From: Bacteroidota bacterium
GTDB lineage: Bacteria; Bacteroidota; Bacteroidia; JACCXN01
Assembly (NCBI GenBank): GCA_013696965.1
Contig: JACCXN010000099.1
Location: 1 to 33,701 of the forward strand
Length of the DNA stretch: 33,701 nt
Direction of reading: 5' to 3'
Shown piece by piece: positions 9,738-32,322 of this stretch. Numbering within the stretch: the stretch's first letter is position 1; each line of letters starts with the position of its first letter. The notes under the pieces were generated by a model. It had not been told where the DNA came from and searched no databases. It worked only from the letters and a program-made list of their open reading frames with translations. The position numbers were made by a program, and so were the translations under genes.

Positions 9738-10568
9738 TTAAGAGTTGTAATTATGTAATACTAAAAGCGGTTTGTCAGTCTGAAAAACCATTGTCTTGGT
9801 CATACTTGTATGAAATATAGTTTCAAAAAGAGTGTATTTTTTGGCAAGCATAACAGTCCAATCAGGCTTATTACTCTCAACCAACTCTCTTATTCCTTCT
9901 ATAATGTCACCTTTTACTGCAAAATATATTTCTGTTTTAACATTGTTGAAATATTCGGAAAGCTTTAATTGAACTTGTGATTTTTCAATTACTTCTTGTT
10001 CAAATTCAGGAATAACAGAATATATTTGCAATTCAGCATTAAAAATTTTGATTAATTGGGATAAGAAGCGTAAATCTTTTGCATTCTTAATTTCTTTTAA
10101 ATCATAAGCAAATCCAATTTTACGGGGAGTTGTATACCTGGCATTTGAAGGCACTGCTAAAACAGGGCAGGCAACATTCTTAACCACACTGGCTGTGTTT
10201 GAACCAATAATGGTTTCCAATACTCCACTTGCTCCTTTAGTGCCCATTACAATCAAATCAATGTCCTCGTCCTTGATTAATTCAGCGCATACACTTACTA
10301 CATCTCCAATTCTGCTTTTTGTTTCACAATTGATATCTGCAAAACGTGGATTTTTCTTAATTCTTTCTAAGGTTTGTTTCAATCCTGCCTCTGAGTCTTC
10401 TTTGAGAATGCCCATTACAGATACCATTATATCTGCCCTGTTATAGGGCATATGGTAAGCATTCAGCAAAATTATTTTTGCGGAGTTTAACTTTGCAAGT
10501 TCAAGAGCATATTCTAAAGCATTATTTGCATCGCTTGAGAAATCTGTCGGAAATAATATGTTTTTCAT
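9738..10568 (-). CDS. Universal stress protein with tandem UspA domains
   Basis: The product has 276 residues: two UspA folds, about 1-145 and 150-276. The first has the complete nucleotide-binding signature G-xx-G-x9-GS in MGTKGASGVLETIIGSN (around 110-126) and the N-terminal LFPTDFS. In the second domain the matching stretch (LAKKYTLFETIFHTSM) lacks the glycines, so it probably does not bind ATP. This one-active, one-degenerate layout is common in Bacteroidota. No signal peptide: cytoplasmic. It is the first gene of a two-gene unit with ferritin, with a promoter candidate about 50 bases upstream. Confidence 0.92.
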   Translation of the reverse strand: MKNILFPTDFSSDANNALEYALELAKLNSAKIILLNAYHMPYNRADIMVSVMGILKEDSEAGLKQTLERIKKNPRFADINCETKSRIGDVVSVCAELIKDEDIDLIVMGTKGASGVLETIIGSNTASVVKNVACPVLAVPSNARYTTPRKIGFAYDLKEIKNAKDLRFLSQLIKIFNAELQIYSVIPEFEQEVIEKSQVQLKLSEYFNNVKTEIYFAVKGDIIEGIRELVESNKPDWTVMLAKKYTLFETIFHTSMTKTMVFQTDKPLLVLHNYNS

Positions 10569-10660: not shown

Positions 10661-13600
10661 TTAAATTCTCACACCTATTACAAGAATATCATCTACCTGT
10701 TCTAATTTTCCTCGCCAGTTGTTGAAGGTTTCCTCTAGCCTTTGCTTTTGATTTACCATTGGTAAATCTTTAATTTCATATAAAAAGGATTTAAAGCGTT
10801 GGCTCATGAATTTTTTTCCTGAATCACCTCCAAATTGATCAGCAAAACCATCTGAAAATAAATAAAGGCTATCTCCTTTTACACCTTTAAAATAATGGTT
10901 GTTGTAATTTGTGTTTTCCATATCAGCAACACCTCCAATAGAAAAGCGATCGCCTTTAATCTCTAAAAACTCATTTCCAAAAAAGCAATACAGCGGCCTT
11001 AGAGCACCTGCAAAGGTAAGTTCAAGAGTATTTATATCAAAGCTGATAATACTCATGTCCATTCCGTCAATTGACTCTCTGTTCAAAAGGTCTTTATTTA
11101 AGGCCTTCAACACTTTTTTATGCAATTCCAAAAGTATTGCTGATGGATCAGTTATACCCATCTCATTCACTATCTGATTCAGAAAACTTGAACCAATCAT
11201 AGACATAAATGCCCCTGGAACACCATGTCCAGTACAATCCACTGAACTTATAATTATTTTATCATTCCTTTCGGTAAAAAAATAAAAATCACCGCTTACA
11301 ATGTCTTTGGGTTGAAATAATATAAAGGAATCAGGAAGTGCTTTGTTGATTTTTTTAAGATCAGGCAAAATGGCATCCTGAATGCGTTTGGCATAATTTA
11401 TACTATCCGTAACTTCTTTGTTTTTTCTTGCAAGTTCCTTGTTTTTATCAGCTAGTTCAACCGTTCGTTCCGATACCTTTTGTTCAAGCTCTTTTTTGGC
11501 CTTACTTAAACTTCTTATCCTTAATTTAACAAAACCATATAACAATCCAATTGAACAAAATAGAACAATTCCTTTAAACCAGAGCGTACTCCAAAATGGT
11601 GGAACAATTGAAAAGCGGTATGTTTCAGCTTCAATATTCCAGATATTATCATTGTTTGATGCTTTTACCATAAAAGTATAATTACCATGGGGTAAATTTG
11701 AATACACAGCTTCTCCTGATTTTGTTATGGGTGACCACTCCTCATCAAAACCCTCCAGTTTGTATTGATAGTTAACCTTTTCAGGACTTGTAAGACTTAT
11801 TCCTGAAAAACAGAAAGTAATGTGGTTTTGATCGTAATTAAATTTTGAATCAACAGGAAAATGGGCCTCTTTTTGAAATATTTTAATTCCATTTATCCTT
11901 GTAAGGGGTTCAATCATGTTGGTTTTATCTTCTGATGGATTGAATTTCACTACTCCCATAATAGTTCCAAACCAGATATTTCCTTGAGAATCGCGGCAAA
12001 TGGCATTGGCATTTGTTTCCACTCCTGAAAAACCATCAGCCTTACCGTAATGGGTAAACAATGAATTCACAACATCATATTTTTCTATCCCGTTACTTGT
12101 TCCTATCCAAATATTACCCGAATTATCTGAAATAAGTGAATAGGGCGATTCGGATTTTAATCCCTCTTTAATGGTAAAGTTTTTAAATACATTCCCATCG
12201 AATTTATACAAGCCTCCACCATATGCTCCAAACCAAATATTTCCAGCTTTATCCTCATTCATGCAAAGAATAAATTTATGGTTTATACCACTTTTCTCAT
12301 TAAAAACCTGAAACTTGTTTCCATCATACATAGTTAGATAACCACCAAGAGCACCAAACCATAAATTCCCTTTGCTATCCTTGAAAATGCGATAAATACT
12401 ATTTACGCTTAATCCATTTTCTGAATTAAAAACCAAAAATTCAGAAGTAGTGGGATTGTATTTTACTGCTCCTTCTTTTGTTCCAAACCATATGTTTCCT
12501 TCATTATCATCGCAAATGGCAAATACTGTGGATGAGGAAGGCAGCTCCATTGAGGAAAAAGCCTGAGGCTTCCCTGTTAAGGTGTCAATTCTATAAACTC
12601 CTGCATTCGCAGTACCAATCCAAATAATTCCCTTTTTATCCTCAAACAGAGATAGAACAGCATTGTTTAAAAATTCATCTGAAAAATAATTTTTAATTGA
12701 AAAATCATTTGATATTCTATCTGAATTGCCAGTAGTATTCGCAGTGTAATTTATTACTGAAATTCCATGGTTAGTGCCTAACCATAAACTTCCTTTGCTA
12801 TCCTCGATAACTGACCATATTAAATTGTTTGCAATACCATCAGCAATGTCAAAGGTTTGAAATCTTTCACCCCGGTATTGATTTAAACCCAAATCTGTAC
12901 CTATCCAAATGTTGTTTTCTCTATCCTGCACTATGCAATTAGCATTGTAATAATTCAGTCCCTGCCTAGTAGTGAAATGCTTTATTTTTCCATCCTTTGA
13001 AATTTTTGTAACACCACCTCCTTTTGTTCCAACCCATTTATTAGAATCTTTATCTGTATCAATAAAGGTGATTTTAGGTGAAAGAAGTTCTTCATTGATT
13101 TGCCCTTTAAGGGATGGATTTCCATTTGTCAACAATTCATCTGTAGAAACAATTAAAACCCCAATGTCTTCTGTTCCTACCCAAATTTCATTTTCGGATC
13201 CCTGTGCAAAAGTTTTTATTTTTGAAACATTTAAACCATTTAATTCATTTAGTGTTAATACAGATGCTTTGGTAATTTCAACTCCTTTTGGAACTATTGT
13301 AATTCCTTTATCTGAACCAATCCATAAGTTCTGTTTATTGTCAAATATTAAACATGAAATATTCTCGGATAAAAGGCCATTGGATTTTGAATAAGAAATT
13401 GCTTGAAAATCAGACGGATTTATTCTTAGAATTCCTTTGCCTTGCGTCCCAATCCATATAATTCCATTGGCATCCTCCACAATTGCTTTTACGGATTTAA
13501 AAGCTGTTTTTTCTTCCATTTCCAGGTTTTTAAACTTGTTGCTTTTTAAATCATAAACAGAAACTCCGCCTCCCCAATGTCCGAACCAAATATTACCTGA

Positions 13601-13909
13601 TTTAGTTTTACATGCCGAAACAACCCAGTCCTCGGCAAGCCCGTCTTTCTTTTTATAGGTGACGAATGACTTTCCGTTAAATTTTGAAACTCCACCCATT
13701 GTTCCTACCCATAAATTTCCTTCACCGTCCTGAAGTAATGTCTGTACTTGGGATTGAGTTAATCCCTGTTCAACCCCTAAATGAATAAAACTTGTTGTTT
13801 GAGCAGAAATGTTTGCTGCGAACACAAGTAAATAGAAAAAGACACTTTTTGCTAGTCCGGAAAGCAGAATTTTCTTCAAATTTTTCATGTGAAAGAAGGT
13901 TTTTAACAA
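10661..13909 (-). CDS. Two-component-regulator-propeller sensor with SpoIIE/PP2C phosphatase output
   Basis: The product has 1082 residues. An N-terminal signal is followed by periplasmic propeller repeats of the LWVGTxGGVxKF type at about 45-690, a Y_Y_Y domain (YQYKLEGFDEEWS) near 705-770, one TM helix near 780-798, a coiled coil to about 850 and a SpoIIE phosphatase domain from about 865 to the end. Metal-binding aspartates are visible in VSGDFYFF, SVDCTGHGVPGAFMS, DGMDMS, SDGFADQFGG and QVDDILVIG. The propeller usually precedes a histidine kinase; here the output is a Ser/Thr phosphatase, so it should sense an extracytoplasmic ligand and dephosphorylate a cytoplasmic target, probably an anti-sigma-factor antagonist. 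It is the last gene of the long operon, six bases after the coiled-coil protein. Met8 (13888) is an alternative start. Confidence 0.92.
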   Translation of the reverse strand: MLKTFFHMKNLKKILLSGLAKSVFFYLLVFAANISAQTTSFIHLGVEQGLTQSQVQTLLQDGEGNLWVGTMGGVSKFNGKSFVTYKKKDGLAEDWVVSACKTKSGNIWFGHWGGGVSVYDLKSNKFKNLEMEEKTAFKSVKAIVEDANGIIWIGTQGKGILRINPSDFQAISYSKSNGLLSENISCLIFDNKQNLWIGSDKGITIVPKGVEITKASVLTLNELNGLNVSKIKTFAQGSENEIWVGTEDIGVLIVSTDELLTNGNPSLKGQINEELLSPKITFIDTDKDSNKWVGTKGGGVTKISKDGKIKHFTTRQGLNYYNANCIVQDRENNIWIGTDLGLNQYRGERFQTFDIADGIANNLIWSVIEDSKGSLWLGTNHGISVINYTANTTGNSDRISNDFSIKNYFSDEFLNNAVLSLFEDKKGIIWIGTANAGVYRIDTLTGKPQAFSSMELPSSSTVFAICDDNEGNIWFGTKEGAVKYNPTTSEFLVFNSENGLSVNSIYRIFKDSKGNLWFGALGGYLTMYDGNKFQVFNEKSGINHKFILCMNEDKAGNIWFGAYGGGLYKFDGNVFKNFTIKEGLKSESPYSLISDNSGNIWIGTSNGIEKYDVVNSLFTHYGKADGFSGVETNANAICRDSQGNIWFGTIMGVVKFNPSEDKTNMIEPLTRINGIKIFQKEAHFPVDSKFNYDQNHITFCFSGISLTSPEKVNYQYKLEGFDEEWSPITKSGEAVYSNLPHGNYTFMVKASNNDNIWNIEAETYRFSIVPPFWSTLWFKGIVLFCSIGLLYGFVKLRIRSLSKAKKELEQKVSERTVELADKNKELARKNKEVTDSINYAKRIQDAILPDLKKINKALPDSFILFQPKDIVSGDFYFFTERNDKIIISSVDCTGHGVPGAFMSMIGSSFLNQIVNEMGITDPSAILLELHKKVLKALNKDLLNRESIDGMDMSIISFDINTLELTFAGALRPLYCFFGNEFLEIKGDRFSIGGVADMENTNYNNHYFKGVKGDSLYLFSDGFADQFGGDSGKKFMSQRFKSFLYEIKDLPMVNQKQRLEETFNNWRGKLEQVDDILVIGVRI

Positions 13910-13915
13910 ACCATT

Positions 13916-15310: not shown

Positions 15311-15312
15311 CT

Positions 15313-18999: not shown

Positions 19000-19012
19000 A
19001 AATCAGGCCAGG

Positions 19013-19927
19013 TTAAAAGTACCTGGGACTAATAGATTTAACTTTTCTTAGGTTAAAATCATAACCAATAAACAATTCATGCGAACCTCTTGCAAGGCGA
19101 CCAATTCTATTGATACCAATATCATAAGAATAACCAAATCTAAAATTCTCGTTTATCCTGAATTGAGTTAAAAGTACTACTGAATTTTTTGGACGAAAAG
19201 ATACACCAACCCAAACTTTATGATCAATAATTAAATTGACATTAAGATCAGTACTTAATGGTGCGTTTTCAACAGCTTTTATTAAAATTGAAGGCTGAAG
19301 CGCAAGCCTGTCATTAATTTCAAAAGTATTGCCAAGGGTATAGAAAAAATGCATTCTTAAATGACTTTCGATTCCCTCCAGTTTTACAGGTGTAATGCGC
19401 TGGGCATATCCAATATGATTTGCACTAAGCCCTGTATAAAATTTTTTAGTATTGTAAAACAAACCAAAATCAGCATTAAATACGGTAGTTTGAGTTCTAC
19501 TGTTGAAATTATATACATCTGCCTGATCTTTATAATCAATTTTATCCCAATGAAAATTGTAAGTTATTCCTCCAGCTCTTAATCCAAAGGCAAGTTTACC
19601 AACGCTTAAGGGAATCCTGTATGCGTAGGAAGCGAGGTAACCGACAGAATTTTTTGGTCCTATTGCATCATTAAATACCTGCAGTCCCACACCCACTCTT
19701 GTAGTTAATGGTGTGTTAAGGCTAAGGGTTTGTGTATTTGGAGCCCCGGGTATATTAATCCATTGGTTCCGATTAATTGCCAGTGCAGTAAATGCTTCTC
19801 TACTTCCTGCATATGCTGGATTAAGTACAAAAGGATTAAACATGTATTGGCTAAACTGGGCATCTTGCTGAGCAAATCCCAATGAAACCACTAATGTTAA
19901 ACATATGCTACTTAAAAACTTTTTCAT
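19013..19927 (-). CDS. PorP/SprF family type IX secretion outer-membrane protein
   Basis: The product has 304 residues. The signal peptide ends at GFAQ (about 19) and is followed by the family hallmark QFSQYMFNPFVLNPAYAGS, then alternating amphipathic strands of an outer-membrane beta barrel. Family knowledge: Flavobacterium SprF is needed for secretion of SprB, and PorP/SprF proteins pair with type-B sorting-domain cargo encoded next to them. That is the arrangement here: the gene with a type-B domain ends 10 bp upstream. The OmpA-family gene is 13 bp downstream. Core T9SS genes (sprA, porV, gldKLMN) are not in the window, so this is an accessory PorP/SprF copy. Confidence 0.95.
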   Translation of the reverse strand: MKKFLSSICLTLVVSLGFAQQDAQFSQYMFNPFVLNPAYAGSREAFTALAINRNQWINIPGAPNTQTLSLNTPLTTRVGVGLQVFNDAIGPKNSVGYLASYAYRIPLSVGKLAFGLRAGGITYNFHWDKIDYKDQADVYNFNSRTQTTVFNADFGLFYNTKKFYTGLSANHIGYAQRITPVKLEGIESHLRMHFFYTLGNTFEINDRLALQPSILIKAVENAPLSTDLNVNLIIDHKVWVGVSFRPKNSVVLLTQFRINENFRFGYSYDIGINRIGRLARGSHELFIGYDFNLRKVKSISPRYF

Positions 19928-19937
19928 TAAATCAGAA

Positions 19938-20693
19938 TCAATTCGTTAATTCAACCCAGCCTTTGTGAACATCATTGCCTAAAGTTACAATATAAAAATA
20001 GGTTCCATCTGGTAAAGGCTTCCCGTTTTTATTGTTTCCAATCCATACTGCGGTATTATTATCGTAGCCTTTGGAGGCCCAAACTTTATCGCCCCAACGA
20101 TTATATATTTCCACTGAATTTTCAGGAAAATTTTCTATTCCATCTATTATCCAGGTATCATTTTCTCCATCTCCATTAGGTGTTATACCAGAATAAATAT
20201 GAAAAAAACAGGCACTTGTTCTTTCAAGTTCTATTGAAAATTCTATACTACTTGTTTTTCCGTAACTGTCTGTTACTGTAACAGAGTAAATTCCAGTTTC
20301 CAATCCGTATATTGAATCCTGCGAACCAACAGCAGGGGTCCAATTGTAAATATAAGGTGCAAACCCTCCATTAACTTTTATTGCAGCATAGCCATCCTTT
20401 GCCCCCCTACAACTTTCACCCTTTGAAACAAGGTCCAGTTCCAGGTTCTGAACAATATTAGGTTGATGAAAACCTTGTGTCAAAAAATAATTATTGGATG
20501 AAGAGGTAACAATTACTGCTTCTCCGGCAGAGTAGGAGAGACTGCCCCAGGATCCTTCTGAATAACCGCCTGCGCTGCCGATTAGGACAGGGGTTAGCTG
20601 TATTTGTTGGGCTTGTAGGCCTTTTAAAAGTGTCAGCAAAAGAAGAGTTGTTAATTTTATTTTATCCATCATTGCTACGATAAATGATTCCAC
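19938..20693 (-). CDS. Small SprB-repeat protein with T9SS type-B (CHU_C) sorting domain
   Basis: The product has 251 residues. After a signal peptide (best start Met9, MDKIKLTTLLLL, at 20669; ends LQAQ) comes a short beta segment containing the GSWGSLSYSAGE pattern found in many T9SS cargo proteins. One SprB repeat (GGFAPYIYNW to GIYSVTVTDSYGKT) lies at about 103-150. The C-terminal domain, about 168-251, is the gliding-motility-associated CHU_C type: GITPNGDGENDTW, IYNRWGDKVW, GKPLPDGTYFYIV. It is therefore exported through the type IX system and displayed at the surface. SprB itself is thousands of residues; this is a miniature. It precedes PorP/SprF by 10 bp. It may be an anchor or adaptor for the two large proteins encoded just upstream, which lack such a domain (inference). 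Confidence 0.92.
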   Translation of the reverse strand: MESFIVAMMDKIKLTTLLLLTLLKGLQAQQIQLTPVLIGSAGGYSEGSWGSLSYSAGEAVIVTSSSNNYFLTQGFHQPNIVQNLELDLVSKGESCRGAKDGYAAIKVNGGFAPYIYNWTPAVGSQDSIYGLETGIYSVTVTDSYGKTSSIEFSIELERTSACFFHIYSGITPNGDGENDTWIIDGIENFPENSVEIYNRWGDKVWASKGYDNNTAVWIGNNKNGKPLPDGTYFYIVTLGNDVHKGWVELTN

Positions 20694-20703
20694 TCTTAAT
20701 TTC

Positions 20704-23700
20704 TTACCTTATCTGCAACCAGTTAGTACCATCTGAAATAATTTCAATGCTAGTATTAACTGCAACTGATGTTGAAGTGGCACCTGTACTTAAAAGAACA
20801 TAACTTGGACTTACCGTTATTGCAACGCCACGCGCAACAAGAATATACCTTCTGTTGGGGCAAGAACTTGCCGCAGGAAGTGTAAAGGTTGATGCTGTTC
20901 CACTCAGATAATAGATTGCAGCTGTGTTATCAAGCGTTGTGGCTGTGGTAACTTTTTTAACCGTTGTTCCGAAAGCTCCGTTTATATCTAATGTGCTCTT
21001 AGGGGCATTTATTCCTATCCCAACATTAACTGCGTTACTTCCGGTAGCGCCCAAAACCATGCTATTACTAGAGCCTACTGAAGAGCCCCAACCTATTGCA
21101 ATTGCATTTGTTAATCCTCCGGTACTAACATCAGCAAAATCTCCAATTGCAATGTTTCTCGAACCCGTTGTATTGTTAACTAATGCATTAAAACCAATTG
21201 CGGTATTCTGACTACCAGTACTATTATTACTAAGAGACCCTTGTCCGACAGAAGTATTCCTAAAACCTGTAGTATTTAACATTAATGCGGAAATACCCAA
21301 AGCTGAATTATAATAACCTGAGGTATTTGCATTTAAGGACTGTATGCCTACAGCAATATTTGAAACTCCTGAAGTATTACTGTATAAAGATTGATACCCA
21401 ATAGCTATATTTTGTTCTCCATCAATATTATTATAAAGAGATTGAGCACCAATAGAAATATTTCTAATCCCAATAGTATTCTTAAAAAGAGCCTCGTACC
21501 CAATTGCTTCATTACTACTACCCGTTGTGTTATTATACAGTGAGAAACTTCCTAAAGACAGATTTTTATTGCCATTACTATTACTTGTTGGCTGATTAAA
21601 ATAAAGAGCCTTATAACCGATTGCCACATTATCAGTAGCCCAGGTTACATTGCCATTTGCGAATGACTGAGTGAATAAAGCATCTCTTCCAATGGCAATA
21701 TTTTGGGAGGCATAAGTACTACTATTTAAAGCACTGCTTCCAACAGCTACGTTATCATAAGCATTGTTTAATCTCAAGGCGTTTACACCAAAAGCAGTAT
21801 TTGAACTTCCTGCAATATTATCACGGAGAGCATTTAAACCATAGGCGGTATTATTGATACCGGTATTGGAATTCCCGCTTAATAAACCAAAAAAAGTATT
21901 CCCGTTTACATCAATTCTTCCAGCCTTTTGGTTATTCATTTTGAAATTTAACGGAACATTATCCGTGGTACCTATAAAGTTAGTTCCATCAACAGTGCCT
22001 GCATTTCCTGTCAAATTCCACCCTGAACCTCCGCCTCCAGCAGACTGCCATGTAGCGTTACCAGAAGCATCTGAAGTCAGAACATATCCTAGGGCAGCTC
22101 CAGTCGTTACCTGAAGGCTATTTGTTTTTGTTTTCCCGTTTACATCTAGTTTGGCTGTGGGTGCAGTGGTATTAATACCTACATTTACGGCATCTGCTCC
22201 GGTTCCTCCTAAGACTATAGAATTATCTGCATCTACTTTTGCATTATACCCGATTGCGGTAGCATTAGTTCTCTGAGTGCCGGAAAGATCCGCATAAGTA
22301 CCAATAAAAGTGTTTTTTGTTCCTGAGGTATTGTTCTGTCCTGCACTGTAGCCCATAGCAGTGTTATAAAAGCCAATTGTATTTCCAAAGAGAGCTCCCA
22401 ATCCGTTTGCTGTATTTTCGTAACCTGTGGTATTGGAATAAAGTGCCTGTGCTCCATGAGCAGCATTGTTATACCCTGTAGTATTAGAACCGATTGAGCC
22501 GGAGCCTGTAGCTGTATTATATGTTCCGGAAGTGTTTAAATTAAGAGCATTATAACCTGTAGCTGTATTATCAGTTCCGATAGTATTATATTGAAGAGAC
22601 CATGTTCCGGTTGCTGTATTGCCAAAACCTGAAGAATTAGATAATAATGATTGATATCCTATCGCAGTGTTGGTGTTTCCTGTATTTGAAGAAGGTGTGT
22701 TCGAGCCTTTAAGTGCCTCATATCCAACAGCTACATTATAATTAGTAAATGCTGTTAAAGTATTATTAGCGTTTGCCATGGAAAAAGCGCCTATTGCAAC
22801 AGCATTAGAACCTGCAACATTATTGTAAAGCGCATTTCTACCCATTGCAACATTCTGATCACCGATAGTATTATTATAAAGCACATCCCTTCCAAAAGCC
22901 GAGTTGTTATTACCCGAATTTGTAGAAAAAAGGGCTTGATGCCCCGTAGCTACGTTCCCTAAGCCCGTAGTATTATTAAATAAAGCCCAGGTCCCGAATC
23001 CTGAGTTATATCCCCCAGTAGTATTTTTATTAAGAGCATTAGAGCCAATAGCTGTATTAAAATTACCTGACGTATTGGAAAATAAAGCCTGTGTTCCGTG
23101 AGCTGTGTTTTGAGTTCCTGTATTGGAAAATGCTGCCTGATAACCTAAAAAGGTATTGCCATTTGAACTTTCTATTCTTCCAGCCCTAACATTGTTTACC
23201 CTCATTTCCAAAGGAACATTCGTAGTGGTACCAATAAAATTTGTTCCATCAACTGTTCCTGCATTTCCTAATAAACTCCATACATTTGCAGCTGAAGCGA
23301 CAGCCCATGTAGGCGGTATTCCGGGGCCGGCAGAGGTGAGTACCTGTCCGGAAGCTCCTGGTAAGTTATTAGGCATTAACGCACCCGAAAATTTAATATT
23401 TCCTGAAACATCAATTCTTTCCAGAGGAATAGCTGTACCAATCCCTAAACGATTGTTTGCATTATCCCAGAAAAAGTTTGCGTTGTTTTGAGTTAAAGAA
23501 GTACCGTTGCTGAAAATAACAGACCCCAAATTATATGGTGTGGCATTATTGGTTCCGCCATTGCCAATAGGCACAATACCAGATAATGAAATGCTGGGAT
23601 TTGTGCCTCCTGTAGATGATAATGGAGCGGTAGCGGTAACATTTGTTACACTTGCCGGAGGTATCGTCCAGGAAAGTGTCCCGGTACCATTATTAGTAAG

Positions 23701-25200
23701 ATAACTAGAGGCTGGACCTTGAGTAGTTGGAAATGAAGTAACAATATTATTTATCTTTACAATATTCCCGGTAGAATTTACCTGAAACTGGCTGCTTGTC
23801 CCGACCGAAAGAGGAGATAAAGGATTAGTAGTACCAATGCCAACATTACCAGCATTGCTTATACGCATGCGCTCCAATGAAGTTGAAGAAGCATCGGGAG
23901 TTGTCCAAAAGGTAAGTGCAGTAGGAATATCGGCAGACCCGGAACTTGCAAGATCTCTTAAAGCAAGAATCTCGGCTTGGTTAATTGCACTGCCGGATGC
24001 TGAAAATGTTAACGACCCTAAGCTCATCCCGGAAGTTCCCACTGCAGCATTTTTCTGAATATTTAGCATGGATGATTGGTAGGTTGAACCGCTTACAATA
24101 ACCCCGGGGCTTGTAGAAGAACTTGTATTAAAAACGTGCTGGGATGCCGTATGTGCCGATGTGTTTGCCGTGTGATTTAAGCGGATGCTTGCCCCTGTAC
24201 CACCTTTTAAAAGGAAATCGTTATCAGTTGTTCCTGCATAATTAATTCCCGGGAAAGTTCCGGAGTTACCAGTTAAACTCCAGCCTGTAGAACCTCCAAA
24301 AGTTGAAGGGTCAACCCAGGTATTTATTCCACCTCCATTGGATTTTAAAACATACCCGTTTATCCCCGGATCACCTCCAGGCATTAAGGCACCCGTGTAA
24401 CGGATACTTCCATTTACATCAAGCCTTTCTCCGGGGCTGTTGGTGCCTATTCCCACATTTCCAGAGGCATCAATTCGCATTCTGTCATTCATTCCACTGG
24501 TCTGAAAAACAATTCCATTAGTTCCACCACTGGAACGGATTCTGAATTCACCGCCACTAGTACCGCTTCCCTCCAAATCGACAAAAGAATTACCAAAATT
24601 GCTACTTAATTTTAACACATTATTCGTATTTATAGCTGTACTTGAGGAAAAAACTTCAAGAGCAAAATTGTTACTCGGAGTAGTACCTATTCCAATATCT
24701 CCATTTGTGGCAATTCTCATTCTCTCCAGTGAATTAGTTGTAAACTTAATTGGTCGAGCGTTATTTGTACCAAAAAAATCAGTAGCAGTAATTGAATTCC
24801 CACCTAAAGACCAACCTGTGGAAGAGGGATTATTTCCTAAACCACTTGTCATTTGAAAAGCATTAGCACTTTGATCAAAAATTAAAGTAACAAATTGCTC
24901 TAATATAATATCACCTGAAACCAAAGGCTGATTTCCATGCTTGTATATATTAATTGGCCCCAAGCCATTTACATTTAACGAAGCTGCACCTGTAACTGTA
25001 TGATTGGCTTTAAATGTAACTGTAATTCCAGGAGTATATGAAGTGAAATTTGAAGGATAATCATTTAAAGTGAATGCATTACCAGTACCAGTGGATATAA
25101 CCTGCCACTGTGCGTTAGCCTTAAATGTCAAGGTAGACAATAGTAAAATCAGAAGGAAACTAAAGCATTTCATCTTTCTATTTTTTTTAAAAGCTTTCAT
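20704..25200 (-). CDS. Giant surface protein with YadA-like beta-roll repeats
   Basis: The product has 1498 residues. The signal peptide ends at KANA (about 30). Residues about 140-640 carry repeated ERMRI-xxxGNVGIGT-xxP-xxLDVNG modules typical of tail-fibre and surface-fibre stalks. Two blocks, about 680-985 and 1090-1390, consist of short repeats NTAxGxxALxxNTTGxx, which resemble the YadA/Hia left-handed beta-roll head. Each block begins with the same GTVDGTNFIGTT module and ends with AIG...SIVLGxTGxxAVNVGI, so one block is a duplication of the other. The C-terminus is a small beta domain (TLPAASSCPNRRYILV, ISDGTNWLQI). No peptidase S74 chaperone, T9SS sorting domain or membrane anchor is visible. 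It follows the collagen-like gene by five bases. An adhesin or fibre role is inferred. Met10 is an alternative start. Confidence 0.85.
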   Translation of the reverse strand: MKAFKKNRKMKCFSFLLILLLSTLTFKANAQWQVISTGTGNAFTLNDYPSNFTSYTPGITVTFKANHTVTGAASLNVNGLGPINIYKHGNQPLVSGDIILEQFVTLIFDQSANAFQMTSGLGNNPSSTGWSLGGNSITATDFFGTNNARPIKFTTNSLERMRIATNGDIGIGTTPSNNFALEVFSSSTAINTNNVLKLSSNFGNSFVDLEGSGTSGGEFRIRSSGGTNGIVFQTSGMNDRMRIDASGNVGIGTNSPGERLDVNGSIRYTGALMPGGDPGINGYVLKSNGGGINTWVDPSTFGGSTGWSLTGNSGTFPGINYAGTTDNDFLLKGGTGASIRLNHTANTSAHTASQHVFNTSSSTSPGVIVSGSTYQSSMLNIQKNAAVGTSGMSLGSLTFSASGSAINQAEILALRDLASSGSADIPTALTFWTTPDASSTSLERMRISNAGNVGIGTTNPLSPLSVGTSSQFQVNSTGNIVKINNIVTSFPTTQGPASSYLTNNGTGTLSWTIPPASVTNVTATAPLSSTGGTNPSISLSGIVPIGNGGTNNATPYNLGSVIFSNGTSLTQNNANFFWDNANNRLGIGTAIPLERIDVSGNIKFSGALMPNNLPGASGQVLTSAGPGIPPTWAVASAANVWSLLGNAGTVDGTNFIGTTTNVPLEMRVNNVRAGRIESSNGNTFLGYQAAFSNTGTQNTAHGTQALFSNTSGNFNTAIGSNALNKNTTGGYNSGFGTWALFNNTTGLGNVATGHQALFSTNSGNNNSAFGRDVLYNNTIGDQNVAMGRNALYNNVAGSNAVAIGAFSMANANNTLTAFTNYNVAVGYEALKGSNTPSSNTGNTNTAIGYQSLLSNSSGFGNTATGTWSLQYNTIGTDNTATGYNALNLNTSGTYNTATGSGSIGSNTTGYNNAAHGAQALYSNTTGYENTANGLGALFGNTIGFYNTAMGYSAGQNNTSGTKNTFIGTYADLSGTQRTNATAIGYNAKVDADNSIVLGGTGADAVNVGINTTAPTAKLDVNGKTKTNSLQVTTGAALGYVLTSDASGNATWQSAGGGGSGWNLTGNAGTVDGTNFIGTTDNVPLNFKMNNQKAGRIDVNGNTFFGLLSGNSNTGINNTAYGLNALRDNIAGSSNTAFGVNALRLNNAYDNVAVGSSALNSSTYASQNIAIGRDALFTQSFANGNVTWATDNVAIGYKALYFNQPTSNSNGNKNLSLGSFSLYNNTTGSSNEAIGYEALFKNTIGIRNISIGAQSLYNNIDGEQNIAIGYQSLYSNTSGVSNIAVGIQSLNANTSGYYNSALGISALMLNTTGFRNTSVGQGSLSNNSTGSQNTAIGFNALVNNTTGSRNIAIGDFADVSTGGLTNAIAIGWGSSVGSSNSMVLGATGSNAVNVGIGINAPKSTLDINGAFGTTVKKVTTATTLDNTAAIYYLSGTASTFTLPAASSCPNRRYILVARGVAITVSPSYVLLSTGATSTSVAVNTSIEIISDGTNWLQIR

Positions 25201-25205
25201 TTAAT

Positions 25206-28200
25206 TTATTTAAGTATTACCCTTCCAAATGCACCGGATCCCACAGCATCTAGCCATAATCCGATGGAAGAGCCTGCTCCAGGTGTGGAAACACTACCTG
25301 CCCCTCCGGGAGTTGTTGAAGTAATTACATGTTGCCCCCTAACAGAACCATTAGGGCCTGCTTTAACTTCCACGACTCCTGAAATAGCTACACGACATTC
25401 CTGGCCGGCACCACAATTTTCATACATTACTCCAACAACTGAAGTATGTCCATTAATATTGGTTGAGGATATTCCAGTGGTTGGATGAATAATAACGATA
25501 TCTCCTTTAGCTAGAGCTGCGGTATTATTGACCAATACAACAGTAATTGCATCGCTTGTTGCAGCTGTTCCAGCACCAAGCCCAATATCACCTGCTACCT
25601 GTAGTTTACTTGTAGGTACTGAAACCCCAATTCCAATGTTCCCATTATGAGTGATTATCATTCTATTTGTGCTGCTTATGGCATCATTTTCAGTAGTAGT
25701 GAAAATTAATTCAGTACCCATTCCTATGGTTGACCAATTTTGACTGGTTCTTGCAGACATACCTGCATTTGGACCATTAGGACCCCATGTTAATCCATTA
25801 TAACCACTAAGGCCATAAATTCCTAATGTAAATCCTGAAGGAGGAGCTGATGGAGAACTTAGAACATTATCTGATCTGAAAATCAAGAAACCTGGTTCTG
25901 ATATGGATGAGCCCATCAGCACAGTGCGGGGCTCAGTATCACTTGCAATGTGAAGAACAGTTCCAGGAGCATTTGTTCCGATACCAACACGGCCCGTAGA
26001 AGTAACCCTCATTCTTTCTAAAGAGAATGTTTTTATAGCAAAATCCTGTTCATTTGTGGTTCCGATAAAACTATTTGGATCAGTAATGTTATTTCCAAAC
26101 AATTCCCATGCGTTTGATCCACCACCACCTGTATCCCAAGCAGTTCCATCCCAATGCACAAAGTTTTTAAGATCCAAATCATAAACAAGTAAACCTGCTT
26201 CTGAATTATTAAGTCCTGAAATTGCAGTTCTTTGAGCCGTACTTAATCTTGGTATTAATATACCTCTAACAGTATCTTGAATATGTAATTTTGCGAAAGG
26301 GTTTGGAGGATTTTCACCAATGGAAACATTTCCATTACCATTTATTATCATTCTCGTTTTCTTTTGAACACTGCCAATATTTGTAGTATAAAAATGCAGC
26401 CTGGCACCATTTCCAGTAGAAAATGATTCTGTAGAAAAAGCAGAAATTCCTGCAGCTGGTCCAGAATTCATTATTCCTATACCATCATGCCCACCAAACC
26501 CAAATTCACCTAATTTGAAATTAGCAGGAGTAGCTGACATTCCATCTATAATTCCTCCTGACCTTGCAACATAAAAACCTCCCTCTTGAACAGCAGAGTT
26601 TAGTAAAAGGTAGGGCATGCTATCATTAGTAATTTGCAGGGCAGACATAGGATTTTTTATTCCCATTCCAATTAATCCGTCTTTTTTAATAGTCATTCGA
26701 AGATTGTTTACAGTCCTAAATTCTAAATCTACGCTGTCAATAGTTCCAATGAAATCCACGCCCTCAACTGTACCAGTATTTCCTAACAGTGCCCAAGCAT
26801 TTGCAGCTCCGTCAGCTCCATTGCAGATATAACTTGTAGATGTAACCTCACTAAAATCAAGAAACCCATCATTATTTAAATCAGTTCCTGTTTCCATTAG
26901 TTGTCCTCCATTAATACAATTTACTCCTGCGGGCTCAAAAGTTAGATTTGTTAAGGAATTTAATCCGGTTGCTCCAGTGGCTCCGTCTATTCCATTATTT
27001 CCAGTTGCGCCAGTTGCTCCATCAAGTCCATTATTTCCTGTTGCTCCCGTGGCACCGTCTATTCCATTGTTTCCCGTTGCTCCAGTTGCTCCATCTATTC
27101 CATTATTTCCTGTTGCACCTGTGGCACCGTCTAGTCCATTGTTTCCTGTTGCGCCTGTGGCACCGTCTAGTCCATTGTTTCCTGTTGCTCCCGTTGCTCC
27201 ATCTATTCCATCTACTCCATTTGTTCCGTCAAGGCCTGTGGCTCCTGTTGCGCCATCTATTCCATCTACTCCATTTGTTCCGTCAAGACCTGTAGCTCCG
27301 GTTGCTCCGTCTATTCCATCTACTCCGTTTGTTCCGTCAAGACCTGTGGCTCCGGTTGCGCCATCTACTCCATTTGTTCCGTCAAGGCCTGTGGCTCCGG
27401 TTGCTCCGTCTATTCCATCAATTCCGTTTGTTCCGGCAAGTCCTGTGGCTCCTGTTGCTCCGTCTATTCCATCTGTTCCGTTTGTTCCGTCAAGACCTGT
27501 GGCTCCGGTTGCTCCGTCTATTCCATCTGTTCCGTTTGTTCCGTCAAGGCCTGTGGCTCCGGTTGCTCCGTCTATTCCATCTGTTCCGTTTGTTCCGTCA
27601 AGGCCTGTTGCTCCCGTAGATCCATCTAAACCATTTGTTCCATCAAGACCAGTTGCACCTGTGGCTCCATCTAAACCATTGTTTCCCGTTGCACCGTCTA
27701 GTCCATTGTTTCCAGTTGCTCCCGTTGCTCCATCAAGTCCATTGTTTCCAGTTGCGCCAGTTGCTCCGTCTAGACCATTGTTTCCCGTTGCTCCCGTTGC
27801 TCCATCAAGTCCATTATTTCCTGTTGCGCCTGTGGCACCGTCTATTCCATTGTTTCCCGTTGCTCCCGCTGCTCCATCTATTCCATTATTTCCTGTTGCG
27901 CCAGTTGCTCCGTCTACTCCATTGTTTCCTGTTGCTCCAGTTGCACCGTCTACTCCATTGTTTCCTGTTGCGCCCGTTGATCCGTCAAGTCCATTTGTTC
28001 CGGTTGCTCCCGTGGCACCGTCTATTCCATTGTTTCCTGTTGCTCCCGTTGCTCCATCAAGTCCATTATTTCCTGTTGCGCCTGTGGCACCATCTATTCC
28101 ATTGTTTCCTGTTGCTCCCGTTGCTCCGTCTATTCCATTGTTTCCTGTTGCGCCCGTTGCACCATCAAGTCCATTGTTTCCAGTTGCACCCGTTGCTCCG

Positions 28201-28760
28201 TCTAGACCATTGTTTCCTGTTGCGCCTGTGGCACCGTCTATTCCATTGTTTCCTGATGCACCGGTTGCACCGTCTATTCCATTGTTTCCGTTTGTTCCAT
28301 TAAGACCTGTTGCACCCGTAGCTCCAGCTACCCCACTTTGTGCAGTACCGGCATGAAAAGCATATGGAACAGCCTGGAATTGGGTTATACCCATACTGAT
28401 GTAATTGGTTCCCCCAAGAGGATCAATGGAAACCTCAAGAAAATGAGAATTTGAAGCCCAAGCAATGGATTGTATATTTCCTATAGTACTTGTTCCATTG
28501 CCAATTACTATATTAAATAAACCAAACTGATTTGTTATTATCTGATGGGATTCAAGGTAGGCAACGTTTGTGGGAGGGTTGCCTGTTAATACTTTTATCT
28601 GAACTCCAATACTTGCGTTTGCAAGTGCAACTCCGTTTGCATCCCTGGCGATTGCCTGATAATTGATACCTTGTACAGGTACTGTTTGAGCAATTGCTGA
28701 AAAGTAAAAAGAAAAGGCAATTATAACAAAAGAGAAAACTAATCTGTAAAATTTTATCAT
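25206..28760 (-). CDS. Collagen-like surface protein with proline-free Gly-X-Y array
   Basis: The product has 1184 residues. The signal peptide ends near Ala24. Residues 25-140 are a globular domain (GINYQAIARDANG, LESHQIITNQFGLFNIVIGNG) seen at the start of many Bacteroidota surface proteins. Gly143 to Asn601 is 153 uninterrupted Gly-X-Y triplets, mostly GAT-GAT-GNN-G(I/L/V)D, with no Pro, Lys, Arg or Glu. A short two-cysteine module follows, containing a perfect EF-hand loop, Asp627 to Glu638 (DLNNDGFLDFSE); it resembles DUF7151 as I recall it. Then come two tail-fibre-like GxIGxG modules, one sharing the GTVEGVDFIGT motif with the next gene's product, and a C-terminal beta domain. No T9SS domain is visible. 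It is the first gene of the seven-gene operon. Probably a trimeric calcium-stabilised fibre (inference). Confidence 0.88.
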   Translation of the reverse strand: MIKFYRLVFSFVIIAFSFYFSAIAQTVPVQGINYQAIARDANGVALANASIGVQIKVLTGNPPTNVAYLESHQIITNQFGLFNIVIGNGTSTIGNIQSIAWASNSHFLEVSIDPLGGTNYISMGITQFQAVPYAFHAGTAQSGVAGATGATGLNGTNGNNGIDGATGASGNNGIDGATGATGNNGLDGATGATGNNGLDGATGATGNNGIDGATGATGNNGIDGATGATGNNGLDGATGATGNNGIDGATGATGTNGLDGSTGATGNNGVDGATGATGNNGVDGATGATGNNGIDGAAGATGNNGIDGATGATGNNGLDGATGATGNNGLDGATGATGNNGLDGATGATGNNGLDGATGNNGLDGATGATGLDGTNGLDGSTGATGLDGTNGTDGIDGATGATGLDGTNGTDGIDGATGATGLDGTNGTDGIDGATGATGLAGTNGIDGIDGATGATGLDGTNGVDGATGATGLDGTNGVDGIDGATGATGLDGTNGVDGIDGATGATGLDGTNGVDGIDGATGATGNNGLDGATGATGNNGLDGATGATGNNGIDGATGATGNNGIDGATGATGNNGLDGATGATGNNGIDGATGATGLNSLTNLTFEPAGVNCINGGQLMETGTDLNNDGFLDFSEVTSTSYICNGADGAANAWALLGNTGTVEGVDFIGTIDSVDLEFRTVNNLRMTIKKDGLIGMGIKNPMSALQITNDSMPYLLLNSAVQEGGFYVARSGGIIDGMSATPANFKLGEFGFGGHDGIGIMNSGPAAGISAFSTESFSTGNGARLHFYTTNIGSVQKKTRMIINGNGNVSIGENPPNPFAKLHIQDTVRGILIPRLSTAQRTAISGLNNSEAGLLVYDLDLKNFVHWDGTAWDTGGGGSNAWELFGNNITDPNSFIGTTNEQDFAIKTFSLERMRVTSTGRVGIGTNAPGTVLHIASDTEPRTVLMGSSISEPGFLIFRSDNVLSSPSAPPSGFTLGIYGLSGYNGLTWGPNGPNAGMSARTSQNWSTIGMGTELIFTTTENDAISSTNRMIITHNGNIGIGVSVPTSKLQVAGDIGLGAGTAATSDAITVVLVNNTAALAKGDIVIIHPTTGISSTNINGHTSVVGVMYENCGAGQECRVAISGVVEVKAGPNGSVRGQHVITSTTPGGAGSVSTPGAGSSIGLWLDAVGSGAFGRVILK
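26958..28334 (-). repeat. In-frame 36/54 bp minisatellite encoding the Gly-X-Y array
   Basis: The DNA repeats mainly with a 36 bp period (GAT-GAT-GNN-GxD) and, in the middle (about 27190-27630), with a 54 bp period (GAT-GAT-GLD-GTN-GxD-GxD). Unit sizes are multiples of three, so gain or loss of units would change fibre length without breaking the frame. The repeat also creates a long spurious open frame on the plus strand. Confidence 0.9.
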
Positions 28761-28837
28761 ATAACTTCAGTAAAATGCAATTTGGCGAAATTAAAATTTT
28801 ATTTGCTAAAATCCTACAAAAATTGCAATGAAGTTAT
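28761..28837 (-). promoter_or_regulatory. Promoter and inverted repeat before the surface-protein operon
   Basis: On the minus strand TTTG (28820-28817) is followed after 23 bases by TAATTTCG (28793-28786), one mismatch from the -7 consensus, giving a transcript start about 25 bases before the ATG. The same gap has an inverted repeat: TGAAGTTAT (28829-28837) with ATAACTTCA (28761-28769), extended by AATTGCA/TGCAATT. One arm touches the start codon at 28760 and the other lies three bases from the preceding stop. In read-through RNA it could act as a weak terminator or hide the start; in RNA from the local promoter it could not form. Confidence 0.5.
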
Positions 28838-28839
28838 TT

Positions 28840-30630
28840 TTAAATTCGTACTCCAATTATAAGAATATCATCAACTTGCTCCTCATTTCCTCTCCATTCT
28901 TCGATTATATTATCAAGATAATTTTTTTGCTCTTTTGTATTTAAATGTTGGATATCAAGCAAGGTTTGTCTGAATTGTTTTGCCATGAATTTTTTTCCCT
29001 TACTGCCCCCAAATTGATCTACGTAACCATCGGAAAAAATGTAAACAGTATCGCCCTTTTCAAGGTTAAATTTATGATTGGTATAATATTTTTGATTTTC
29101 TCCCACAAACATTCCAATTGGGAACTTATCGGCCTTTATTTCAATTAGTTCATTTTTACGAATAATATAAAGAGGATTATATGCACCTGCATACTCGATT
29201 TCATTTTTTTCAAAGTCGATGGAGCAAAGGGCAATATCCATTCCGTCTTTTGTTGTGTTTTCATCAAGTCCTTGATGAAGTGTTTCACTAACACCGTTAT
29301 TAAGATAGTTTAATATTGTTGCAGGTTCTAATTCATTAAGTTTATTAACTATATGTTTAAGTATATTATATCCAACTATAGACATAAAAGCACCAGGAAC
29401 TCCGTGTCCTGTACAATCTACAGCAGAGAAAAATACTTTGTTTTCCTTTTTCTCAAGCCAATAAAAATCACCACTAACAATATCCTTCGGCTTGAAAAGA
29501 ATAAAGGAATCGGGTAGATGTTTTTTTACAATTGAATCTGGAGGCAATATAGCCTCTTGAATTCTCTTTGCATATTTAATACTATCTGTTACTTGGTTAT
29601 ATAGAAATTCTAATTTTTCTCGCTGAACTTCAATCTCCTCCTTTTGCCTTACAACCTCCGCAGTTCTTTCCTCGACTTTTCTTTCTAATGACCGTTCATT
29701 TTCCCGAAGATCATCACGCATTTTAATTAATGCAAAACCTAGATTATCCTGATCACTTAATGGTTGATATTCATAATCAAAATTTCCAGCACCAACTTCA
29801 TTGGCAAACACCCTAGTTCTAATTACACTCTCTATTAATTGATTTAATGCAACAGACATTTCACCAATTTCATCATTTCTAAATGAAATCTTTTGCTCTG
29901 TTACAGTTCCCTTACTCATTAGAAGAAGTATTTTTTTCAAATGATTGACGGGCTTTACAATCGAATTCACTGTTAATGTAGCAATAAGCACTCCTCCTAA
30001 AAGGAGTATCATTCCTAGACTTTTAACAATTAATAATAATAAATCAAAGGATTTAAGCATTTGATCACTAACTCTAGTTGATCTTTCATGATGGGTAATT
30101 ATTAGATCGGAAAGATTCTCAAGAATTATTTTTGTTTTTGTATCAATTTCTCCATCTTCATCTACAGTTGGACGAAAAAAGAAAACAATTGTTGGGTCAT
30201 CATAACTGGAAAAGGAATTCAAATTTGTCATGATTTCCTTATGCTCTTTGAACAGCAATTCAATTAAGCTAAAAATACTTGAAATTGTATTTTGTTCATC
30301 AAGACTCCAGTTTAAGGAAAGTTCATTAATTTTTCTTTTAAGTTCAGGATAATCTTCATTTATTAACTTGCGAAGTTTTTCTTTATCAAAATTATCGTCA
30401 CTAGATTGAATAAAGGCCCAGTTTGTAATATACATTTTTGACCTAACGATCATTAAATTGAGTTCTTCCAGGGCGCCAACAGAGGGTGAAATTACATTTG
30501 TAATTTCATCATTGATTTCTTTACTTTTGTTAATTGTATTTTGTGTAAAAAAAAAGGCTGTTATTGTTAATAAAATAAGAGTTCCAAACCCAAATCCTAT
30601 TTTTCTGCCTATTGTAAACCTAAATTTCAT
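28840..30630 (-). CDS. Membrane sensor with HAMP and SpoIIE/PP2C phosphatase domain
   Basis: The product has 596 residues. TM1 is about 11-31, a helical periplasmic sensor of four-helix-bundle type spans about 32-195, TM2 is about 197-222, HAMP about 220-275, a coiled coil (ERSLERKVEERTAEV) about 305-350, and the SpoIIE phosphatase about 355-596. Metal-site aspartates appear in VSGDFYWL, SAVDCTGHGVPGAFMS, DGMDIALCS, FSDGYVDQFGG and QVDDILIIG. The output domain is a close paralogue of that in the propeller phosphatase at 10661-13909 (both share YAKRIQ(D/E)AILP and LPDSFILF(Q/K)PKDIVSGDFY). It is the third gene of a unit with YfiR-like and TPR proteins, 21 bases after the TPR gene. It probably relays a periplasmic signal to a Ser/Thr-phosphorylated regulator; no partner kinase or STAS protein is in the window. 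Confidence 0.93.
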   Translation of the reverse strand: MKFRFTIGRKIGFGFGTLILLTITAFFFTQNTINKSKEINDEITNVISPSVGALEELNLMIVRSKMYITNWAFIQSSDDNFDKEKLRKLINEDYPELKRKINELSLNWSLDEQNTISSIFSLIELLFKEHKEIMTNLNSFSSYDDPTIVFFFRPTVDEDGEIDTKTKIILENLSDLIITHHERSTRVSDQMLKSFDLLLLIVKSLGMILLLGGVLIATLTVNSIVKPVNHLKKILLLMSKGTVTEQKISFRNDEIGEMSVALNQLIESVIRTRVFANEVGAGNFDYEYQPLSDQDNLGFALIKMRDDLRENERSLERKVEERTAEVVRQKEEIEVQREKLEFLYNQVTDSIKYAKRIQEAILPPDSIVKKHLPDSFILFKPKDIVSGDFYWLEKKENKVFFSAVDCTGHGVPGAFMSIVGYNILKHIVNKLNELEPATILNYLNNGVSETLHQGLDENTTKDGMDIALCSIDFEKNEIEYAGAYNPLYIIRKNELIEIKADKFPIGMFVGENQKYYTNHKFNLEKGDTVYIFSDGYVDQFGGSKGKKFMAKQFRQTLLDIQHLNTKEQKNYLDNIIEEWRGNEEQVDDILIIGVRI

Positions 30631-30651
30631 ATAAAACTATCCTCTTAATAT

Positions 30652-31527
30652 TTAATCTAGTTTTTCTAACCTAGCTTTAATCTCATTTGATTTTTCAATT
30701 TCATGCAGACTAAAATAAATTCCTTCCAATCCTTTTAAAGTCTCCTTTTTTTGCGGATCCAATTTGTAAGCTTTTTCCATAAAAGGCAATGATTGTTTAA
30801 AAATGCTTACTGTTGATTCCTGTACTTCCATGAATTCAAAAATATCCATGTCAAAATCAAGTTCATTGATAATATTTACAGCTTTATTATAATAAAGAAT
30901 TCCTAAATTATAATTTGCACTGATGTTTTCAGGATCAATTTGCAAAACATTAGCATACAAATCTTCAACCTTTTTAAAATATGCAATATTTGCAACTCTT
31001 TCTGAATCATAAATACTGGTAAAAACAGAAGCCAAAGCTAGTTTAAATTCAATTTCCATTGATTTTAAAGATTGATGTTGACCAAGCATATTTTGTATTT
31101 CCTTGAAACTTTCAAAGTTTTTTATTGCTATTTGATAATCTTTTGGATTAAGAGTTAAAACAACATCATTGAAAAAAGTTGTTGCCAGATATTTCAAATT
31201 TTGTTCATTATCTTCTTTGTGCTCATTTGCTTTGTCAAGAGAAATTGATTTTTTAAATGATTCCAAAGACTCTAATCGTAAATTTGAAATTGGGTTTGAT
31301 TTCTGTGAGGCTTTATAAATTTCCTTATAAATGAAGCCATGTACATACCAAGTATATGGATCCAAGGAAGAAATTTCATCATTAGCTGCATCATCAATAG
31401 CTAATTTTGCCTCTGAATAATTTTCATTTTGAAAATGAGTCAGGGCAATTGCAACCTTATTACTTTGTGCATAAGCACTAAGATTAATTGCAAGTAGCAC
31501 AAATAGTATGAATTTAAATTTATTCAT
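30652..31527 (-). CDS. Periplasmic TPR protein
   Basis: The product has 291 residues. The signal peptide ends at AYAQ (about 21). The rest is helical, with TPR pairs visible at about 25-60 (ALTHFQNENYSEAKLAIDDA), about 195-225 (VEDLYANVLQIDPENISANYNLGILYYNKA) and about 240-290 (SLPFMEKAYKLDPQKKETLKGLEGIYF). TPR domains mediate protein contacts, so it may scaffold the YfiR-like protein encoded five bases upstream or present a signal to the sensor phosphatase downstream. No enzymatic motif is present. Function beyond this is inference from the operon. Confidence 0.85.
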   Translation of the reverse strand: MNKFKFILFVLLAINLSAYAQSNKVAIALTHFQNENYSEAKLAIDDAANDEISSLDPYTWYVHGFIYKEIYKASQKSNPISNLRLESLESFKKSISLDKANEHKEDNEQNLKYLATTFFNDVVLTLNPKDYQIAIKNFESFKEIQNMLGQHQSLKSMEIEFKLALASVFTSIYDSERVANIAYFKKVEDLYANVLQIDPENISANYNLGILYYNKAVNIINELDFDMDIFEFMEVQESTVSIFKQSLPFMEKAYKLDPQKKETLKGLEGIYFSLHEIEKSNEIKARLEKLD

Positions 31528-31532
31528 TCCAA

Positions 31533-32081
31533 TTAATATACATTTACAGCAAGTGTTGATAAACTTGTACTGACTTTTAAATCATATTTTTCGGCATTTC
31601 CCTTGTTTAATTCAAATGCCTGTTTATTATCCTGAACAATAAAATTGATAGCTGAACCTTGCCTTGCCAAACCAGCCTTTTCAGTTATTAGCAAGGTGCT
31701 CCCATTTTTTACTTTATTTAATATTTCCTGAAAATCAGAAGTATGATCGGGAGATACAATTAACATGTGGCACTTTTCAATAGAGGATGCTGATTGAAAC
31801 TTTTTTATTTCGATAGCTTGATTTCCTGCTCTTCGGGTAGATGCAAGATTATTTAATTCAGAAGACAAATTAGAATTTCCAATTACACCGATTACAAAAT
31901 TTCCTTCTTTATAATTTAATGGCCATTCAATATTTTTTGTAAAACCATAGATAAACATGGTTTTCATTTTGGCATTTGTATTTACCGTTTGATTATTTAG
32001 ATTATTGCCAAAAGAAGAGAGAAGAGCAGCCAAAATGGTTACACATATTACCCGTAAAGTATATGTTTTTATTGTTCTCAC
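31533..32081 (-). CDS. YfiR family periplasmic protein (DUF4154)
   Basis: The product has 182 residues. After an export signal (about 1-25) the YfiR fold is marked by KMKTMFIYGFTKNIEWP, FVIGVIGNSNL, IEKCHMLIVSP, TLLITEKAGLARQGSAINFI and FELNKGNAEKYDLKVSTSLSTLA. In Pseudomonas, YfiR is a periplasmic repressor of the diguanylate cyclase YfiN. Here only one cysteine (Cys104) remains in the mature part, so the disulfides known to stabilise Pseudomonas YfiR cannot form. No cyclase is nearby; instead the operon ends in a HAMP-SpoIIE phosphatase. The likely role is to bind and control that sensor from the periplasm (inference). It is the first gene of the three-gene unit. Confidence 0.9.
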   Translation of the reverse strand: MRTIKTYTLRVICVTILAALLSSFGNNLNNQTVNTNAKMKTMFIYGFTKNIEWPLNYKEGNFVIGVIGNSNLSSELNNLASTRRAGNQAIEIKKFQSASSIEKCHMLIVSPDHTSDFQEILNKVKNGSTLLITEKAGLARQGSAINFIVQDNKQAFELNKGNAEKYDLKVSTSLSTLAVNVY

Positions 32082-32321: not shown

Positions 32322-32322
32322 G

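Follow-up and report, generated by a model that had tools for sequence, protein, structure and literature searches.

The type IX secretion system (T9SS) recognises its cargo by a signal that the cargo protein itself bears at its C terminus. Type A cargo has been observed within the SprA pore, bound to carrier loops (PMC10994853); for type B cargo the dedicated PorP serves as both shuttle and anchor, and PorE links this PorP to peptidoglycan (PMC9143113, PMC12618676). PorE-PorP-type B complexes are known by experiment (PMC9143113) and have been proposed to be static (PMC12618676); mobile SprF requires a Cys-X-Cys in its C-tail, where a Cys links SprF to GldK (PMC12635249). In Bdellovibrio, MAT fibres with a conserved N-domain are displayed at the surface, their partner there being unidentified (PMC10769870). 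Among envelope regulators, the periplasmic sensor of YfiN is a PAS domain (PMC4655355), and the structure of the SiaA phosphatase has been solved (PMC7647112). Here we describe a ten-gene locus in a stretch of 33,701 bp (the window), an entire contig from a 3.86-Mb Bacteroidia genome. The locus seems to produce giant surface fibres resembling phage tails, tied down by a tiny T9SS cargo and an outer-membrane anchor.

The ten open reading frames (ORFs) all lie on the minus strand and span 10661-32081, as a previous sequence-only reading had it, with gaps in transcription order of 5, 21, 79, 5, 10, 10, 13, 2 and 6 bp. Most gene labels of that reading were upheld by Pfam and NCBIfam, while its TPR label fell below cut-off and its beta-roll fibre matched YadA-head and phage-tail-fibre families instead. 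Its mini-SprB with a CHU_C domain retained the latter; the SprB repeat scored 21.9 bits against a cut-off of 28. The locus is composed of two recurrent modules that meet at the 79-bp gap. In transcription order, with parts below the gene that holds them, its features are:

31533-32081, minus strand: YfiR/HmsC-like periplasmic protein (module 1); DUF4154, 108.9 bits
30652-31527, minus strand: TPR protein (module 1); TPR match below the Pfam cut-off
28840-30630, minus strand: HAMP plus SpoIIE/PP2C phosphatase with two transmembrane segments and a periplasmic region predicted to be helical (module 1); HAMP match weak
28761-28839, minus strand: 79-bp gap between the modules, a wide junction conserved by position
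25206-28760, minus strand: collagen-like fibre with a signal peptide and no T9SS C-terminal domain (CTD) (module 2); collagen and DUF7151 in domain searches
28359-28673, minus strand: colN, N-terminal beta-rich domain of this fibre, a weak match to Bdellovibrio MAT_N (NF053851)
26958-28334, minus strand: uninterrupted Gly-X-X run of 153 triplets without proline, by sequence count
26823-26960, minus strand: DUF7151, following the collagen segment; 66.1 bits, cut-off 27.2
20704-25200, minus strand: second giant fibre, with YadA-head/phage tail-fibre-like repeats in domain searches, a signal peptide and no T9SS CTD
19938-20693, minus strand: mini type B T9SS cargo of 251 aa, the proposed fibre adaptor or anchor; CHU_C, 96.4 bits
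20409-20627, minus strand: chucN, N-terminal fibre-partner domain of the mini-cargo, near-exclusive to fibre loci among the CTD proteins fetched
19947-20201, minus strand: type B CTD sorting domain of the mini-cargo, by domain search
19013-19927, minus strand: PorP/SprF shuttle barrel; PorP_SprF, 259 bits
15313-18999, minus strand: PorE-like protein with TPR, PD40, CarboxypepD repeats and OmpA; PorE 329 bits, CHU_0125 399 bits
13916-15310, minus strand: lineage-specific coiled-coil secreted protein; no orthologue in the loci
10661-13909, minus strand: propeller protein with nine Reg_prop, Y_Y_Y and a SpoIIE phosphatase, by domain search

Signal-less fibres were found paired with tiny T9SS cargos: the cargo adjoining the fibre bears a partner domain and either a type A signal or a type B signal accompanied by PorP and PorE. 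In an extra sample of 40 fibre loci picked away from those already studied, 38 had no PorP nearby, and PorP was therefore rejected as the general anchor of such fibres. A partner lay directly beside the fibre in 24/39 of these loci (type B locus L306 excluded), combining an N-domain homologous to chucN with a terminal type A CTD in 150-225 aa (larger in two cases). Cargos of chucN plus CTD in this size range were found directly upstream of 22/55 fibre genes vs 8/286 other ORFs (Fisher 1.4e-13). With a type A CTD model grown from fibre partners, the partner domain was present in all 25 small type A CTD proteins beside fibres and in 0/20 elsewhere; among all CTD proteins of the loci it was present in 44/60 beside a fibre vs 9/157 not (Fisher 1e-23). 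The nine non-adjacent proteins, among them that of the window, are all type B, and most have a fibre gene one or two positions away. Type B partners stand directly downstream of the fibres and ahead of PorP. Eight type A partners tested passed TIGR04183 and two type B partners passed TIGR04131, on which the window's mini-cargo scored 53.8 bits (cut-off 35). The mini-CHU_C cargo is likely the missing link between fibres and PorP. Across L267-L305 (e.g. L285, L281, L293, L304), PorP-less fibre genes often adjoin a protein with the partner domain and a type A CTD.

We compared gene order from two entry points. Regions around PorP-like matches, from 60 relatives plus named GTDB genomes, were annotated by blastp and then by orthologue-grown hidden Markov models; the TPR gene supplied 60 further loci, better matches spread over families, from a class-wide search of 395 genomes. 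The source genome's family (coded f1) had just three genomes in the samples drawn. The TPR gene occurred in roughly 115 of the 395 Bacteroidia genomes, and YfiR, TPR and HAMP/SpoIIE genes adjoined one another in 57/60 sampled loci. The full series of module 1, fibre(s), type B CTD, PorP and PorE was found in 13 loci besides the window, from families f16, f21, f28, f33, f37 and f44 (seven families counting f1). Families f25 and f55 had module 1, CTD, PorP and PorE with no recognised fibre, and several more loci ended at a contig edge after module 1 plus fibre. With the modules joined in nine families overall, the order is kept beyond the PorP-CHU_C-OmpA trio, outside which a lack of conservation would have told against the sequence-only reading. 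Between HAMP/SpoIIE and the fibres, L199, L207, L236, L255 and L256, and also L121 and L249, hold an additional type B CTD protein of ~850-940 aa or, in f16, a Kelch-OmpA protein.

The junction between HAMP/SpoIIE and the next gene spanned 46-462 bp in all linked loci measured except L125 (L127 was not measurable), most other junctions of these loci being <40 bp; the 79-bp gap therefore marks a real module boundary. The promoter ascribed to this gap was not apparent in its sequence, a scan for sigma-70 promoters and terminators staying at background level. The modules also occur apart. In many families module 1 is present by itself. Pedobacter, Mucilaginibacter and Flavihumibacter carry collagen-like fibre, short type B CTD, PorP and PorE genes with no module 1; a search of eight such genomes did not turn up the TPR gene, and P. 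puniceum gave a weak partial match only. We therefore rejected module 1 as part of the fibre machine by definition: the parts fit a scheme of sensing, export and anchoring, as had been suggested, and do not form one indivisible ten-gene machine. On a phosphatase tree, 29 loci had a link to fibre or type B CTD genes and another 29 did not (at least one of the latter, L201, is merely cut by a contig end). The linkage label was clustered, with 10 changes where shuffled labels gave 19.7, and starred branches force at least 6 changes; linkage has therefore been gained or lost several times. In a PorP tree, which is a fast tree with long-branch warnings, the window PorP and most fibre-linked PorPs from outside Sphingobacteriales grouped in a single supported clade with 29 members. 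Most of these have a type B cargo of 174-287 aa as partner; the cargos paired with many other PorPs are SprB-like and much longer.

The export end of the locus most closely resembles PG1035-PorP-PorE of P. gingivalis and Fjoh_3952-3951-3950 of Flavobacterium johnsoniae, in which a type B cargo, a PorP/SprF barrel and a TPR/propeller/OmpA PorE-like protein are co-encoded (PMC9143113, PMC12618676). Here too we found a type B CTD, PorP directly downstream of the cargo gene (10-bp gap), a protein with TPR, beta-propeller, CarboxypepD and OmpA parts, and SprA in the genome (2698 bits). What sets it apart from those cassettes is the very small cargo, which bears a fibre-partner domain, and the genes ahead of it: CTD-less fibre genes and, in nine families, the YfiR/SpoIIE module. 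Both the PorE and the CHU_0125 matches of the OmpA protein are below cut-off, and we therefore term it PorE-like; it is a probable peptidoglycan anchor. The SprB-SprF gliding adhesin pair likewise joins giant surface protein genes to PorP/SprF and a type B CTD, but here the giant proteins lack a CTD, a PorE-like gene is present and PorP has no Cys in its last 40 residues (nor do the fibre-linked relatives listed), hence no Cys-X-Cys of the gliding SprF kind in its periplasmic C-tail. The PorE-like gene and the Cys-free tail point to a static rather than a gliding element. A profile search recognised no T9SS CTD in either giant fibre, so PorP cannot carry them directly under known rules.

The fibres themselves recall the Bdellovibrio MATs in having a signal peptide, a conserved beta-rich N-domain and a phage-like chimeric body (PMC10769870), although the matches are weak. 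Against the MAT N-domain model NF053851, colN scored 29.8 bits (E 4.6e-7), below the cut-off of 60, and 13/13 tested relatives likewise matched this model below cut-off. AlphaFold modelled colN as a confident beta-rich fold (pLDDT 90); a fold search of the PDB returned nothing at E <= 0.001 and a sequence search was also empty, so the PDB speaks neither for nor against MAT kinship. The fibre N-domain was present in 240/395 Bacteroidia genomes. The second fibre aligned to phage tail fibres in tblastn (36% over 48%) and weakly matched the Bdellovibrio MAT Bd1334 (PDB 8OML). Both fibres are probably trimeric, as their collagen- and YadA-like bodies suggest. They differ from the MATs in falling below the family cut-off, in the collagen body and in the co-encoded T9SS parts, and a domain search found no S74 domain. 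The proline-free segment at 26958-28334 is rich in Thr, Ala, Asn and Asp.

Like YfiBNR, module 1 pairs a YfiR-family protein of the periplasm with a HAMP enzyme of the inner membrane, and both loci include an OmpA protein. Module 1 differs in its output (HAMP-SpoIIE rather than the PAS-HAMP-GGDEF effector), in its apparently helical rather than PAS sensor and in an additional TPR protein. YfiR orthologues shared 41-50% identity, and the window protein scores below the YfiR equivalog cut-offs. This protein has only two Cys, one of them within the signal peptide, so the Cys pairs known from P. aeruginosa YfiR are missing; a PDB sequence search with it gave no match. TPR-protein orthologues were full length (33-42% identity). 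Those of HAMP/SpoIIE shared 52-58% identity with invariant PP2C Asp motifs, and both window phosphatases, HAMP/SpoIIE and propeller-SpoIIE, have intact PP2C motifs. As in P. aeruginosa SiaABCD, HAMP is joined to a PP2C phosphatase, whose C-half matches the solved SiaA domain (6K4E, E 4.5e-55); the SiaA equivalog model, by comparison, gave 227 bits against a cut-off of 700, and in place of SiaB, SiaC and SiaD genes the locus holds YfiR and TPR. The genome also encodes two stand-alone STAS proteins (NSSG/DSSG motifs) and an RsbW-like ATPase, which are candidate phosphatase partners.

We propose, at about an even chance, that fibres are exported or tethered via the mini-cargo and that the co-located module 1 is a YfiR/phosphatase switch. 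The two giant fibres would enter the periplasm by their Sec signals, where the mini-cargo would bind the fibre base, probably the N-domain, through its partner domain. SprA would then take the mini-cargo onto PorP, either carrying the fibre out or catching it at the surface, and the PorE-like OmpA protein would tie PorP to peptidoglycan to give a static fibre. Module 1 may act as a YfiBNR/SiaA hybrid, YfiR and the TPR protein restraining HAMP/SpoIIE until the envelope state changes. The released phosphatase would dephosphorylate a cytosolic partner, perhaps one of the two STAS proteins opposite the RsbW-like kinase, and so alter expression or activity, fibres included.

Several observations weigh against this proposal, and its regulatory half is the weaker. 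In the structure model (mean pLDDT 68.6) the periplasmic region of HAMP/SpoIIE is a bundle of helices, unlike the PAS domain of YfiN. About half of the evaluable module 1 loci have no fibre genes, and module 1 often sits beside genes for ferritin (11 loci), universal stress protein (USP; 12 loci) or ECF sigma-like factors (10 loci), so it need not serve a fibre. The window itself has USP and ferritin genes just beyond the ten, and the wide junction separates its modules. Module 1 might then be a general envelope or redox stress switch merely adjoining fibre genes, with the fibre one of several outputs or none, a reading that has a real if less than even chance and is compatible with the export half of our proposal. 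Fibre genes are still the commonest module 1 neighbours, always downstream on the same strand and in seven families, and module 1 is kept in several genomes whose fibre-PorP core sits elsewhere or on another contig (e.g. G007, G008, G020, G175), Sphingobacteriales being an exception.

On the export side, 15/39 extra-sample loci had no recognised partner directly adjacent; for some of these fibres the partner may be none, diverged or distant. Conversely, L125 and L204 have a mini-cargo and no recognised fibre. The window's protein served as the seed of the partner-domain profile, the locus sample was fibre-enriched by design and its rows are not phylogenetically independent. Bdellovibrio, which displays MATs, is not known to have a T9SS, so the fibres may leave the cell by another route. 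The fibres, lacking a CTD, could surface by such an unrelated route while the mini-cargo merely caps PorP, co-location reflecting a shared adhesion function rather than co-transport. PG1035 has been speculated to act as a cap (PMC9143113), and the MATs reach the Bdellovibrio surface with a partner still unidentified (PMC10769870). We consider this unlikely, because the partner domain goes with fibre loci whether the cargo is of type A or type B; 148/157 CTD proteins not beside a fibre lack it, the nine exceptions lying mostly in fibre loci, and each of the three fibre genes of L285 has its own partner. A phage remnant (prophage, tailocin or contractile injection system) that left tail fibres, the rest being coincidence, was rejected as highly improbable even though phage tail-fibre families match both fibres, as these have Sec signal peptides, the same order recurs in many bacterial families, and the window proteins searched included fibre genes only and no sheath, tube, baseplate or other phage genes.

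More broadly, and with some hesitation, we suggest that multi-subunit fibres of the phage-tail-like kind, having no CTD, are brought through or onto the T9SS of Bacteroidia in trans, by way of a mini-cargo adaptor that combines a fibre-binding domain with a type A or type B signal; the type B form would add its own PorP/PorE anchor, often joined to the YfiR-phosphatase switch. A T9SS signal could then act in trans, with widespread signal-less giant fibres each having a tiny signal-bearing partner. This would supply a candidate for the component that retains MAT-type N-domains at the surface, and the YfiR/PP2C switch would be a first guess at how such fibres are controlled. The pairing is also a simple means of annotating many Bacteroidia tail-fibre-like proteins as likely surface adhesins. 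Taken singly, MAT fibres, YfiR, SiaA-like phosphatases and the anchor trio are already known. In the open-licence literature searched we found no system of this full composition, in agreement with the sequence-only reading, and no such link of collagen-like or tail-fibre-like proteins with the T9SS; neither the joint locus nor the pairing of fibres with mini-cargos of two CTD types seems to have been described.

Of the two genes at the downstream end, the coiled-coil gene, which has no orthologue in the compared loci, was rejected as core; the propeller-SpoIIE gene follows the OmpA gene in one other family only, with a cyclase output. In that family (f33 loci L217, L236, L248 and L126) the propeller gene after the PorE-like gene encodes a class III cyclase in place of SpoIIE, joined in two cases by an HD domain. 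Beyond the locus, at its far end from module 1, lie two genes that recur, by annotation, as module 1 neighbours elsewhere:

9738-10568, minus strand: universal stress protein
9218-9727, minus strand: ferritin

Ferritin and/or USP genes stand beside YfiR-TPR-HAMP/SpoIIE in several families (L217, L219, L234-L236, L244, L246, L248 and others). A divergent ECF sigma-like gene adjoins YfiR in L202, L203, L223, L241, L243, L245, L252, L253 and L255, often with an anti-sigma-like gene. Elsewhere in the window, the contig end (1-567) has tandem 89-bp repeats and then a DUF6150 protein with repeated YESQAD motifs; it is followed by a bacterial alpha-2-macroglobulin-like protein of 2033 aa (588-6689) and an 83-aa histone H1-like Lys/Ala/Pro repeat protein (6899-7150). 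A tRNA-Met (32322-32396) lies on the same strand directly upstream of YfiR.

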